64,000 nucleotides of DNA, from positions 1-64,000 of IMG/VR virus record IMGVR_UViG_3300037485_001485; one strand, given 5' to 3'. A program made the position numbers and the translations under genes. Positions 29,154 through 37,348 of this stretch are shown in pieces. The first letter of the stretch is position 1, and each line of letters opens with the position of its first letter. Source of the DNA: a virus. A model generated the notes under the pieces. The model was not told the DNA's origin. It saw only the letters and a list, made by a program, of their open reading frames with translations, and did no database searches.

Positions 29154-29941
29154 CAACGGCTCCGAAGGCGACGACGGCGGCGCGGGTTGCGGGCGACGGT
29201 CCCGATGCGGGCGACGGCCTTGTCGGCGGCGCGGCGAGACGCCGCCGCAGCGGCATCGCGGACGCCGAGGATCGGGGCGAGCACCGGACCCAGGACGAAC
29301 CATGCCGCGACGCCCGCGACGCCGAGGCCGGCTACAAGCCATGCGTTGCGCTGGATCCACCAGAGCCAGTCAGGCGTACCCGGCGGCTTCTTGTTCGTGA
29401 TGACGCGCCCGACCTTCTCCAGCCCCTTGCCTACATCCGCCGCCGACGCCGCCGCCGTGTCCACGAGGATGCGGAGGCTCGACTGCTCATCGGCGCGGCC
29501 CTGTGCGCGCTCGATGGCGTCGGCGCGGCTGTTCAGCCCGAAGTTCCGATAGAGCGGCGCCATGCGCCGGTCTTTGTAGGCGTTCGCCGCGTCCAGGGCG
29601 CGCACACCCTCGTCAATGACGGAGGCGATGCCCGAGGCGCTTCCGCTGCTCGCCCACTTGTAGCGGCCCGCCGCGCGCGTGTAGAACGCACGCGCTGCCG
29701 TCGCCAACGCCGGGTAGCCGACGCGCGCACCGACCGCGAGCCAGTAGGCGACGTAGGCTTCGGCGCTCGCCGCGTCCGTGGGCGCCGTGTAGAACCAGTT
29801 CGACGTCACAAGGCCGCCGCCCACCGCCGAGGACAGCACACGGCCCGCCGTCGCCGCGCTGATCTGCTTGCGTACCTCTGCAAGCACCTTGTCCCAGGAG
29901 AGCGTGTCTACGGGTCCGTGGTAGGCCGCGAGGGCGTGCAT
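29153..29941 (-). CDS. Virion-type membrane protein with NPRRRRR tail
   Basis: The 262-aa protein begins MHALAAYHGPVDTLSWD. A mainly helical body (about 20-190) is followed by one membrane segment (NAWLVAGLGVAGVAAWFVLGP, about 206-226), then an amphipathic Ala/Arg helix and the tail ARNPRRRRRLRSR. This head-membrane-basic-tail layout is shared with several neighbours. It probably spans a virion membrane with the basic end inside. Both ends overlap neighbouring genes by ATGA. Confidence 0.86.
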   Translation of the reverse strand: MHALAAYHGPVDTLSWDKVLAEVRKQISAATAGRVLSSAVGGGLVTSNWFYTAPTDAASAEAYVAYWLAVGARVGYPALATAARAFYTRAAGRYKWASSGSASGIASVIDEGVRALDAANAYKDRRMAPLYRNFGLNSRADAIERAQGRADEQSSLRILVDTAAASAADVGKGLEKVGRVITNKKPPGTPDWLWWIQRNAWLVAGLGVAGVAAWFVLGPVLAPILGVRDAAAAASRRAADKAVARIGTVARNPRRRRRLRSR

Positions 29942-30750
29942 CAGCGGCTCCTCTGTTCCCGGCCGCCGCGTCGAAGCGCGAGCGTCACAAGCACCAGGGC
30001 GACGCCGCCGCCGACAGCCCAGCCCCACGTCGGAATGGCCGCCAGCGGCGAACCCCCGGTGAAAAGCGAAGTGCCCTGCTCGTCGGCCGTGCGATCAGCG
30101 GCAGCTTCGGCCTGCGCTTCGGCGGCGTCTTCCTGCTCCAGATCCATCGCGGGGCTGTTGATCTCGTTGACCGCTTCCGACGGGGGCACCGACGGCGCTT
30201 TGCCGACGACGCGCAACGCCTTGCGGTCTTTGGCCGTCAGCTTCTTCGGATTCTCGATCCGCGCCAGTGCGGCGAGGATGGACAACTTCCACTTCAGGGT
30301 CGCGATCCGCTTGGCCCGCGCCTTGGCGAAGATCGGGCTCTTCTGCGCGCTCAGTCGCGCAATGCGCTCTTTGTACCGCGCATAAATCTTCACGCGCGTC
30401 GCGCGCTTCAGCTTCAGCGCACGGACGATGTAGCCCGGCGCCTTCTCCGGGTTCGGCAGCTTCAGCTTCTTCGCGAGCGCGACGGCGTCCTTGCGACGCG
30501 CCTTGCCGGACTTGATCGCGACGACCAACGCCGCGATGCCCGCCGCAGTGCCGAGCACCGCGCCAGCAACCCAGCCCGCGACGGGCACCGTCGCCACGCC
30601 CGCAGCGGTGATCGCCAGCGTAGACGCGACGGCGGCACCGCCGGCAACAGACGCCGCAGCCCCGGTCTTGAAGGCGTCGATGGCGATCTGTTCACCGTCC
30701 CCGTAGTGACCCGAGGGGCGAAACGCTCTGCGATAGGGGTAGCCGTGCAT
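29941..30750 (-). CDS. Virion-type protein with three or four membrane segments
   Basis: The 269-aa protein begins MHGYPYRRAFRPSGHYGDGE, one of the shared RFxPSxYGD-like N-termini. Hydrophobic Ala/Val-rich stretches at about residues 30-75 can form two spans. A Lys/Arg-rich helical middle follows. A final span (IPTWGWAVGGGVALVLVTLAL) precedes RRGGREQRSR. The start is ATG 30750, set by overlap with the preceding stop. Likely a virion membrane protein; no enzymatic motif. Confidence 0.86.
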   Translation of the reverse strand: MHGYPYRRAFRPSGHYGDGEQIAIDAFKTGAAASVAGGAAVASTLAITAAGVATVPVAGWVAGAVLGTAAGIAALVVAIKSGKARRKDAVALAKKLKLPNPEKAPGYIVRALKLKRATRVKIYARYKERIARLSAQKSPIFAKARAKRIATLKWKLSILAALARIENPKKLTAKDRKALRVVGKAPSVPPSEAVNEINSPAMDLEQEDAAEAQAEAAADRTADEQGTSLFTGGSPLAAIPTWGWAVGGGVALVLVTLALRRGGREQRSR

Positions 30751-31199
30751 CACTTGCTCCGCGCCGTCACGACGTTCTTGTAGATCATAGAGCCGAGGAG
30801 GACGACGAACAAGCCACCCGCTGCCCAGCCGAGGTAGCGGAAGGTCTGGGTAGACTCCTCGCCCTTCTTCTTCTTCGTGATCTGCGCGCCGCTGGCCGAC
30901 AGCTTCGCGCGCATCTTCCGGATCTCGTTGTCGTAGAACACGGCGGCGATGGGAAAGCGACGCTTCATCCCCTGAAAGTTCTTGATCTTGGCCTTTAGGA
31001 TCTGCGCCCGCTCTTCCGGGTCGGAAGGCAGGACCAGTTCGCGGGCCACCGAGACATATTGCAGGTAGTCGGCCACGTCCGGAGGACTACCCCCCGCCGC
31101 CCCCGGCGCCCCGCCCGTCGCGAGTTCAGTAGCCGAGGTCAGGGCGGCGGCGGTGGGGCTCGTACCGCTGTAAACGGAGGCGTGAAAGCGGCGCATCAT
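30750..31199 (-). CDS. Tail-anchored membrane protein with the shared N-terminal motif
   Basis: The 149-aa protein begins MMRRFHASVYSGTSP, a degenerate copy of the RFxPSxYGD motif. A Pro/Gly/Ala linker leads to a helical region (DYLQYVSVARELVLPSDPEERAQILKAKI), a basic KITKKKKG patch and one C-terminal membrane span (YLGWAAGGLFVVLLGSMIY). The gene start lies in an ATGATGA overlap with the gene before it, so either ATG could be used. Likely a minor virion membrane component. Confidence 0.86.
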   Translation of the reverse strand: MMRRFHASVYSGTSPTAAALTSATELATGGAPGAAGGSPPDVADYLQYVSVARELVLPSDPEERAQILKAKIKNFQGMKRRFPIAAVFYDNEIRKMRAKLSASGAQITKKKKGEESTQTFRYLGWAAGGLFVVLLGSMIYKNVVTARSK

Positions 31200-36159: not shown

Positions 36160-36161
36160 GT

Positions 36162-36839
36162 TCAGGCTCCGATCTGCTTGCGGCGAGCCAGGAACGCGCC
36201 GCCTACGAGGAGGAGAAGGGCACCGCCCCCAACGGCCCACGCCCACGCCGGGATGCGCGGCTTCGGCTTCGGCTTCGGCTTCTTCTTCGGCTTCTTCTTC
36301 GGCTTCTTCGTAGCGGCATCCACAAGGGCCTTCGCGGCGGCGTCTTTCTCGGCGTAGATATTGATTAGTTCGCTGCCGCTTTGCACGTCATACTTCGGGG
36401 CAACGACGCCCGGCGCGGCGGCGAGAAGAGCGGCGTCCCCGGCGGCCAGGATCTCCCGCGCGCGAAGCTCGGCCGCCGCGTAGGTGCCGCGACTGTCCAC
36501 GACGGCGGCATCGAGTTCCTGCTTCCGGGCTTCGTCCGACACGTCCCGCATCGACGGCGACGACGTCCAGTTGACGTACCCGCCGGGATCGCCCGCGATG
36601 ATCTTCGTCCGCGATGGCCCGTCGAAGGCGATGAGGTAAGCGTAGAGACTGACCGCCCCGCCCTTGAAGAACACCGTGCCGTCGCTGGTGATCTTGAAGT
36701 AGCGCCCCGTGTCCGCTGCCCCGTAGAACCCGCCGTAATCGCCGGTCGCGCGGCTCGGCTGGAACGCGACACGGTGACCCAGCATCCGGCCCCCCGACAA
36801 GGTCGCCCACGAATCGACGTAGTCGGAGCGCCCGTTCAC
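36162..36839 (-). CDS. Tail-anchored virion-type protein with KPKP linker
   Basis: The 225-aa protein starts at a GTG overlapping the preceding stop (GTGA). Its N-terminal part carries the segment GHRVAFQPSRATGDYGGFYG, a variant of the shared motif. A small beta domain (YFKITSDGTVFFKGGAVSLYAYLIAFDG) and a helical stretch follow. A KKPKKKPKKKPKPKPKPR linker then leads to one C-terminal span (IPAWAWAVGGGALLLLVGGAFL). The linker could reach across a peptidoglycan or capsid gap. Probably a virion membrane protein. Confidence 0.87.
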   Translation of the reverse strand: MNGRSDYVDSWATLSGGRMLGHRVAFQPSRATGDYGGFYGAADTGRYFKITSDGTVFFKGGAVSLYAYLIAFDGPSRTKIIAGDPGGYVNWTSSPSMRDVSDEARKQELDAAVVDSRGTYAAAELRAREILAAGDAALLAAAPGVVAPKYDVQSGSELINIYAEKDAAAKALVDAATKKPKKKPKKKPKPKPKPRIPAWAWAVGGGALLLLVGGAFLARRKQIGA

Positions 36840-37348
36840 GCGACCCCCTGTGCCCGACGTCCCCTCAGAGCGACCGCGATCAGACCGACCACAACAATCG
36901 CGGCCCCGCCCACGGCGAAGGGGAACCACGCCTGTTGATAGAGTACGGGTGCCTTCGCCTTGATGCGGCGCTTCTTCTTCTTCGGCTGCGGAGCGGCCTC
37001 TGGGGGGATGGTGAACGTCGTCGCCGTCGTCGCCGTCGTCGCCGTCGGGGTCGTCGCGCCCGCCTTCAGCGCCGCGACTTCCGCTTCGGTCGCGCGGCGG
37101 CCTCGGGAGCGGATCACGTCCACGACGGTGTTCGTGGTGGCGTCGCCCCTGGCGAAGAACTTCGCGGACACCTGACCCGTGGGGGCGTAGAGGGTCTGGA
37201 GCCCCGCGCCCCCCAGGATCACGAACAGGTAGCCCGAATCATCGAACCATAGCTCGTTCGCGTGCAGGTACAACCAATCCGACGGGGACTCGACCCGGCT
37301 CGCGGGATCCCCGTAGGTGGACGGACGAAAGCGATGGGGCGCGTGCAT
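36836..37348 (-). CDS. Tail-anchored virion-type protein with the shared N-terminus
   Basis: The 170-aa protein begins MHAPHRFRPSTYGDPAS, the clearest copy of the RFxPSxYGD motif. A compact beta region (DWLYLHANELWFDDSGYLFVILGG) is followed by a Thr-rich stretch, a basic KKKKRRIKAKA patch and one C-terminal span (FPFAVGGAAIVVVGLIAVAL). It is the first gene of a coupled run with the 225-aa protein and the transglutaminase-like protein. Probably a virion membrane protein. Confidence 0.87.
   Translation of the reverse strand: MHAPHRFRPSTYGDPASRVESPSDWLYLHANELWFDDSGYLFVILGGAGLQTLYAPTGQVSAKFFARGDATTNTVVDVIRSRGRRATEAEVAALKAGATTPTATTATTATTFTIPPEAAPQPKKKKRRIKAKAPVLYQQAWFPFAVGGAAIVVVGLIAVALRGRRAQGVA

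Follow-up and report, generated by a model that had tools for sequence, protein, structure and literature searches.

The 64,000-nucleotide stretch analysed here (the window) belongs to the 72,988-base virus record IMGVR_UViG_3300037485_001485 (G000; GC content 68%), and its structural gene block encodes five membrane proteins that begin with variants of a single short peptide, or tag, with the consensus [R/A]-F-x-P-S-x-Y-S/G. A preliminary description of this DNA had proposed a common tag on the membrane proteins of one block, and that proposal has strong support: orthologues keep the tag, relatives repeat it on further proteins, selection acts on it at the amino acid level, it is paired in modular fashion with a membrane anchor, and other lineages carry alternatives of their own. 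Judged from the sequence pattern, a sorting or docking signal, as was first suggested, is the best explanation. We tentatively read the tag as a docking peptide that would tie virion membrane proteins to a repeated site, likeliest the underside of jelly-roll capsomers, and put the chance of this at nearly even.

All five motifs were found where the preliminary description had placed them, on the minus strand and within the first ~20 residues of the following proteins:

36836–37348, minus strand: membrane protein A, 170 residues; tag HRFRPSTYGD at 37307–37336, C-terminal membrane segment at 36866–36922.
36162–36785, minus strand: membrane protein B, 207 residues; tag VAFQPSRATGDYGG at 36729–36770, C-terminal membrane segment at 36186–36242.
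31196–31771, minus strand: membrane protein C, 191 residues; tag RFQPSAYSD at 31742–31768, membrane segment at 31394–31450, in mid-protein and followed by a long charged, acidic C-terminal tail.
30750–31199, minus strand: membrane protein D, 149 residues; tag RRFHASVYSG at 31164–31193, C-terminal membrane segment at 30780–30836.
29941–30750, minus strand: membrane protein E, 269 residues; tag RAFRPSGHYGDG at 30694–30729, a hydrophobic hairpin and a C-terminal membrane segment at 29974–30030.

The five genes are coding-type open reading frames (ORFs), and the membrane segment lies near the C-terminus in four of the five products. Membrane segments are taken from hydropathy only and protein starts are predicted; for protein B, gene calling places the start at 36785, the preliminary description had used 36839 and the longest ORF begins at 36929, a choice that leaves the motif unaffected. 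Searches of Pfam and PHROGs returned nothing useful for the tagged proteins, the match of protein E to phrog_944 ("membrane protein", E=0.0034) covering the hydrophobic hairpin only.

The closest evidence for conservation comes from G001 (IMGVR_UViG_3300037041_000775, locus L001), which is collinear with G000 across the block. There the motif is retained in all five orthologues at 37–48% overall protein identity, as RRFRPSAYYGD in protein A (L001 1125–1676), IAYRPSRRPSDYGD in protein B (L001 1730–2326), MRFVPSAYSD in protein C, MRRFHPSSYGA in protein D and GRFVPSAYSG in protein E. The motif Ser is encoded by both TCN and AGY codons, its codon class switching within the orthologue pair 30750/L001 6892, and codon choice varies for Phe, Pro and Arg as well, indicating that the peptide rather than the nucleic acid is conserved. 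An element acting at the RNA or DNA level was rejected on this codon variety, and an exact DNA pattern of the motif had no match in G000, consistent with the variable codons.

Eight related genomes, two of them with incomplete blocks and some represented by fragmentary records, were retrieved with the candidate capsid genes JR1 and JR2 or with other block genes, and never with the motif itself. One conserved gene of the block served as a marker in this search:

28530–29153, minus strand: conserved block marker protein, 207 residues, used to find relatives.

Besides G001, the relatives are G002:C152 (a contig of a metagenome-assembled genome), G003–G005, G009, G010 and G305:C172 (locus L074). 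A tagged-protein query reached only one of them, because the middles of these proteins evolve fast, and a query with a neighbouring arginine-rich protein reached none. The scan with a motif model that the preliminary description had recommended used nine columns, built from eight G000 and G001 motifs, and a cut-off of 12 bits set after a first look at the motif matches. It finds four proteins in G000 against 0.04 expected (0 of 500 within-N-terminus shuffles reach four), a count that is circular because the model was built from those proteins. G005 yields four N-terminal matches against 0.04 expected, and when its N-termini are shuffled 0 of 500 trials reach that number; these matches, MTTFFRPSAHSDG, MAFLPSPYSEP, MRFNPSPYSFP and IQFQPSAQSES, all stand on proteins with C-terminal membrane segments. 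G305:C172 was examined only after the motif had been defined, and consecutive membrane proteins in it begin MPAFQASEYSYG, the protein D orthologue, MQFQPSPASYG and MSLSFQPSEQSYAGDYG (three against 0.045 expected; 0 of 3000 shuffles), while an internal Met in a fourth nearby ORF yields MSQFIPSEQSYSG, read by eye. Three tandem membrane proteins of G002 begin MHARFQSSRHPRSGFG, MTHRRFQPSYGAYG and MQKFEASRSQYAGS; the pattern used for this genome, [RK]F.[PAS]S, gives three matches against 0.08 expected and was picked after looking. A single tagged protein, MLNFQPSPYSN, is present in G004.

Altogether 23 instances were collected from six genomes, 22 of them N-terminal and all 23 on proteins predicted to have a membrane segment. 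Among the first 22, F occurs in 21, P in 17 and S in 22, and after the motif Ser, Y stands at the next-but-one position in 11 and S at the position following that in 13. A pairwise, unbiased comparison of the N-termini had too little statistical power at the threshold used. The preliminary description had held that absence of the motif from orthologues would count against the tag; all five close orthologues keep it, and the orthologue of protein D, which has the motif at its N-terminus in G305 and internally in G005, has lost it in G004.

Two relatives at a greater distance point to other tags. The F-x-P-S-x-Y-S/G motif was not found in G003, where RNFG stands near the N-terminus of four proteins (0.006 expected) and all five RNFG strings of the proteome belong to proteins that have a hydrophobic segment at the C-terminus. 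In G010, three proteins encoded next to one another have W-G-x-Y/V-G close to the N-terminus, against 0.037 expected, and two of the three are membrane proteins; two further proteins have it internally or at their end. RNFG and WGxYGE were found by looking and are therefore weaker evidence; they suggest a separate common tag for each lineage.

The tagged proteins had been described as otherwise unrelated, which holds for their middles and fails for some of their C-termini. Profile comparison finds the N-terminal stretch in common, the C-terminal anchor in common in some pairs and nothing related in between; the similar anchors are of the type W-x-x-A-V-G-G..., and those of proteins A and B align across 23 residues with an hhalign probability of 85.

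Copies of the motif also occur away from the N-terminus, one of them within the structural block of the window:

23720–24277, minus strand: basic protein without a membrane segment, internal copy YFHPSVYSA at 23849–23875.

This copy is kept in G001 (13618–14202) as YFHPSIYSA. In G005, the orthologue of protein D (88975–89766) has an extra N-terminal part that resembles, by eye, the protein at 60080–60298 of the window (RN[LF]DYPMP), and FRASVLSDYGEG is kept at the junction, placing the tag at residue 124. Retention of the tag at the start of the old domain after this fusion is what would be expected of a binding peptide rather than of a cleaved leader; the internal copies fit a binding peptide well, and are hard to square with a leader that is cleaved off or with an insertion signal that has to be N-terminal.

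The window encodes a family-A DNA polymerase, helicases, an AAA ATPase, a PD-(D/E)XK nuclease and a tyrosine recombinase. The polymerase gene, polA, is broken over both ends of the record (window 1–2217 and G000 72370–72988) and is uninterrupted in G001 (37668–40448), the map of which is rotated relative to that of G000; the virus genome is therefore probably circular or permuted, and the G000 record cut inside polA. Terminase (PF03237) and HK97 capsid (PF05065) profiles had no match in G000 and six related virus records, although control genomes gave matches, and membership of Caudoviricetes is not supported, neither a terminase nor an HK97-fold capsid having been found in these seven records. 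An FtsK-type packaging ATPase (PF01580) was likewise not found in G000 and the six related records, which may be fragments, again with positive controls, and no unassigned P-loop was seen among the conserved genes. PHROG head and tail matches were limited to one weak, low-complexity match. Neither the block DNA nor four block proteins found a relative among 50,697 phage records, and JR1 found none among plasmids. These are tailless bacterial viruses of an undescribed family or lineage. G000, G001–G005, G009 and G010 form a lineage of 40–105 kb genomes that encode two or three capsid-like, beta-rich proteins along with a family-A polymerase and a tyrosine recombinase. The G305 contig opens with an ORF for a bacterial-type DEAD-box helicase (L074 1–964), followed by a provirus-like region at 3–13 kb; the helicase points to an integrated provirus and suggests a host of the same bacterial class as the G002 bin. 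The JR2 gene is present in three genomes of one bacterial class.

The tagged genes adjoin genes for capsid-like proteins, and the two best-conserved proteins next to the block are the capsid candidates:

26025–26723, minus strand: JR1, candidate major capsid protein, 232 residues, 81–82% identical in G001 and 50–62% in G002–G005.
25346–25888, minus strand: JR2, candidate second jelly-roll capsid or cement protein, 180 residues, 91% identical in G001.

AlphaFold models made from seven sequences (predicted local distance difference test, pLDDT, 48 for JR1 and 68 for JR2) are mostly beta, with a beta-barrel in JR2. Foldseek lists for both proteins are rich in viral jelly-roll proteins, the matches being weak and none in the PDB falling below E<0.001; against BFVD, JR2 reaches 1e-4, mostly with unnamed phage proteins. 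Comparison of JR1 with VP16 and VP17 of P23-77, and of JR2 with VP16, gave no evidence of homology (hhalign probabilities 0.1–0.3, from shallow profiles). A capsid role for JR1 and JR2 is likely from gene context, and not proven.

From the many single-pass proteins encoded beside capsid-like genes we infer an internal virion membrane; the tagged proteins would be virion components, and the capsid their partner. Under the docking reading, the tag would sit at the free end of small single-pass proteins from the structural block of a tailless virus, in the order tag, variable middle and membrane anchor. During assembly the anchors would lie in the membrane and the tags in a common, repeated receptor site, so that the tag would attach the virion membrane, together with its proteins, to the shell, and unrelated cargo could use one binding site. 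The proposed attachment to the capsid's inner face, which the preliminary description had offered as an example, fits the gene context and, by analogy, precedents in other viruses.

Several observations weigh against this reading. Five membrane proteins of the block carry the tag, and three others, at 29153–29941, 31781–32674 and 35356–36159, do not, so that the tag marks only part of the membrane proteins of the block. The positive-inside topology of the anchors is mixed, and tags that face the shell thus gain no support from charge. The capsid identity of JR1 and JR2 depends on weak models. Finally, a soluble-looking G005 protein (60556–61611) in a non-structural neighbourhood has an internal FHPNTYSG. 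With the 23720–24277 protein, this makes two soluble-looking proteins with an internal copy; the preliminary description had named presence on clearly cytoplasmic proteins as evidence against its proposal, and these copies weaken membrane sorting more than they weaken docking.

The same pattern would arise if the tag were an assembly docking peptide whose receptor is a scaffold, a membrane-layer protein or a penton complex instead of the inner face of the capsid. The block holds many conserved proteins of unknown role, but no candidate stands out, and a receptor used by three to five cargo proteins needs to be abundant or repeated; we consider this unlikely. Less likely still is a signal for membrane sorting or insertion, recognised by a factor of the virus or the host, that directs proteins to a membrane patch where virions assemble. 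The nearly invariable N-terminal position (22/23) and the predicted membrane segment on every carrier (23/23) are what such a signal would produce, but the tag is polar and distant from the anchor, it is missing from other anchored proteins of the block, and copies lie inside the fused G005 88975 protein and in the 23720 protein, which has no membrane segment.

A processing or cross-linking site has only a slim chance. Its appeal lies in an untagged gene inside the tagged block, conserved along with the block and kept in G001, G002, G004, G005 and G305:

35356–36159, minus strand: transglutaminase-like (papain-fold) protein with a C-terminal membrane segment and no tag; PF01841, E=4.8e-8.

The tag could be a substrate of this membrane-anchored protein, but the motif has no constant Gln or Lys and no proteolytic signature, and copies inside proteins have been retained. 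No PF01841-type gene was called in G003, the tag of which is different, although the G003 contig begins in the block. Just as slim is the chance that the tagged proteins arose from one ancestral gene by duplication and divergence, and that the two ends are the last recognisable parts. Similar anchors in two pairs (hhalign 85 and 68) and the tandem order speak for such descent; the unrelated middles and the differing lengths and anchor positions speak against it, and it would account for the origin of the tag but not for its retention. Paralogy as the full explanation was rejected, since profile comparison finds the middles unrelated. Chance or low-complexity composition is very improbable: Y[GS] is found near the N-termini of 45/127 C-anchored proteins versus 68/430 others, but shuffles of the same N-termini give 0.04–0.05 matches per genome, as against the three to four seen.

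Short shared tags that direct proteins to a site are known from other systems. The capsid-targeting sequence (CTS) of T4 is a short N-terminal tag on diverse internal proteins that sends them into the particle (PMC3012670). As there, the tag described here is common to otherwise unrelated proteins, the virion membership of which would follow from gene context; unlike there, where soluble cargo is taken into the scaffold core of a tailed phage, the tagged proteins have a membrane segment, the tag sequence differs and no tailed-phage head genes were found. The exosporium leader peptide (TIGR03720), also an N-terminal peptide common to different surface proteins, is bound by trimeric ExsF in its clefts (PMC11952670), and the ExsF-peptide complex (PDB 9h3d) is weakly present in the JR2 Foldseek list. 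That leader differs in belonging to a bacterial spore, in its IGPT..PPI type of sequence and in its collagen-like cargo without a membrane anchor; by eye, the motif columns F-[QR]-P-S-x-Y-S do not match its consensus.

Nearer in architecture are the proteins GPS-II/VP10 and VP13 of HCIV-1 and HHIV-2, which have a single, likely C-terminal, membrane helix and lie between the membrane and the jelly-roll capsomers or pentons; VP10 of HCIV-1 is the candidate for the protein beneath the two-tower jelly-roll capsomers (PMC6414509). No shared N-terminal tag is described for them in the available part of that text, JR1 and JR2 have no sequence relation to the P23-77 capsid proteins, and the packaging ATPase of the P23-77/HCIV-1 group was not found here. 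SPV1 of the Portogloboviridae, present in the weak JR1 Foldseek list, has two single jelly-roll capsid proteins, and its subcapsomer proteins span the space between membrane and shell (PMC8459092). It is a 20 kb archaeal virus whose relatedness to the present viruses is not shown, and the portion of that account drawn on here mentions no shared tag. Tag sequence and cargo type differ from those of the T4 CTS, the exosporium leader and the HCIV-1 proteins, and membership in those systems is not claimed.

Other terminal sequences recur in the window. RPPFSGY is an N-terminal tag common to two spike- or fibre-like proteins (9565–9927 and 60308–61633, minus strand); it is kept in G001 (28253–29422 and 52301–53635), and PPFSGI is found in G002 (90569–91807). 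Its role may likewise be docking, in this case of surface proteins. Adjacent paralogues at 7155–8138 and 8139–9107 (minus strand) begin MALP[AT]LNW[RK]YVG, have relatives in G001, G002, G006 and G008, and are possibly duplicated host-binding proteins. Arginine-rich tails of the NPRRRR type end the untagged membrane proteins at 21672–21947, 29153–29941, 32950–33912, 57981–58673 and 59425–60072 (minus strand); most tagged proteins have short tails without such an ending. The NPRRRR-tailed proteins are a possible second class, facing the DNA.

A wider proposal, possible yet doubtful, is that of a docking code, in which the common peptide of each lineage (F-x-P-S-x-Y-S/G, RNFG in G003 or W-G-x-Y-G-E in G010) would co-evolve with a receptor surface on the jelly-roll capsid, and RPPFSGY would mark spike-like proteins for another site on the shell.

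How viruses with an internal membrane choose their membrane proteins, and how that membrane is attached to the shell, is understood for a few structures only. If the docking reading is true, a portable N-terminal tag on three to five unrelated proteins would be a simple and testable rule, by which the virion membrane proteins of uncultured viruses could be predicted from sequence and foreign membrane cargo might perhaps be directed into harmless particles. The tag also marks an undescribed virus lineage, one without a match in 50,697 phage records.

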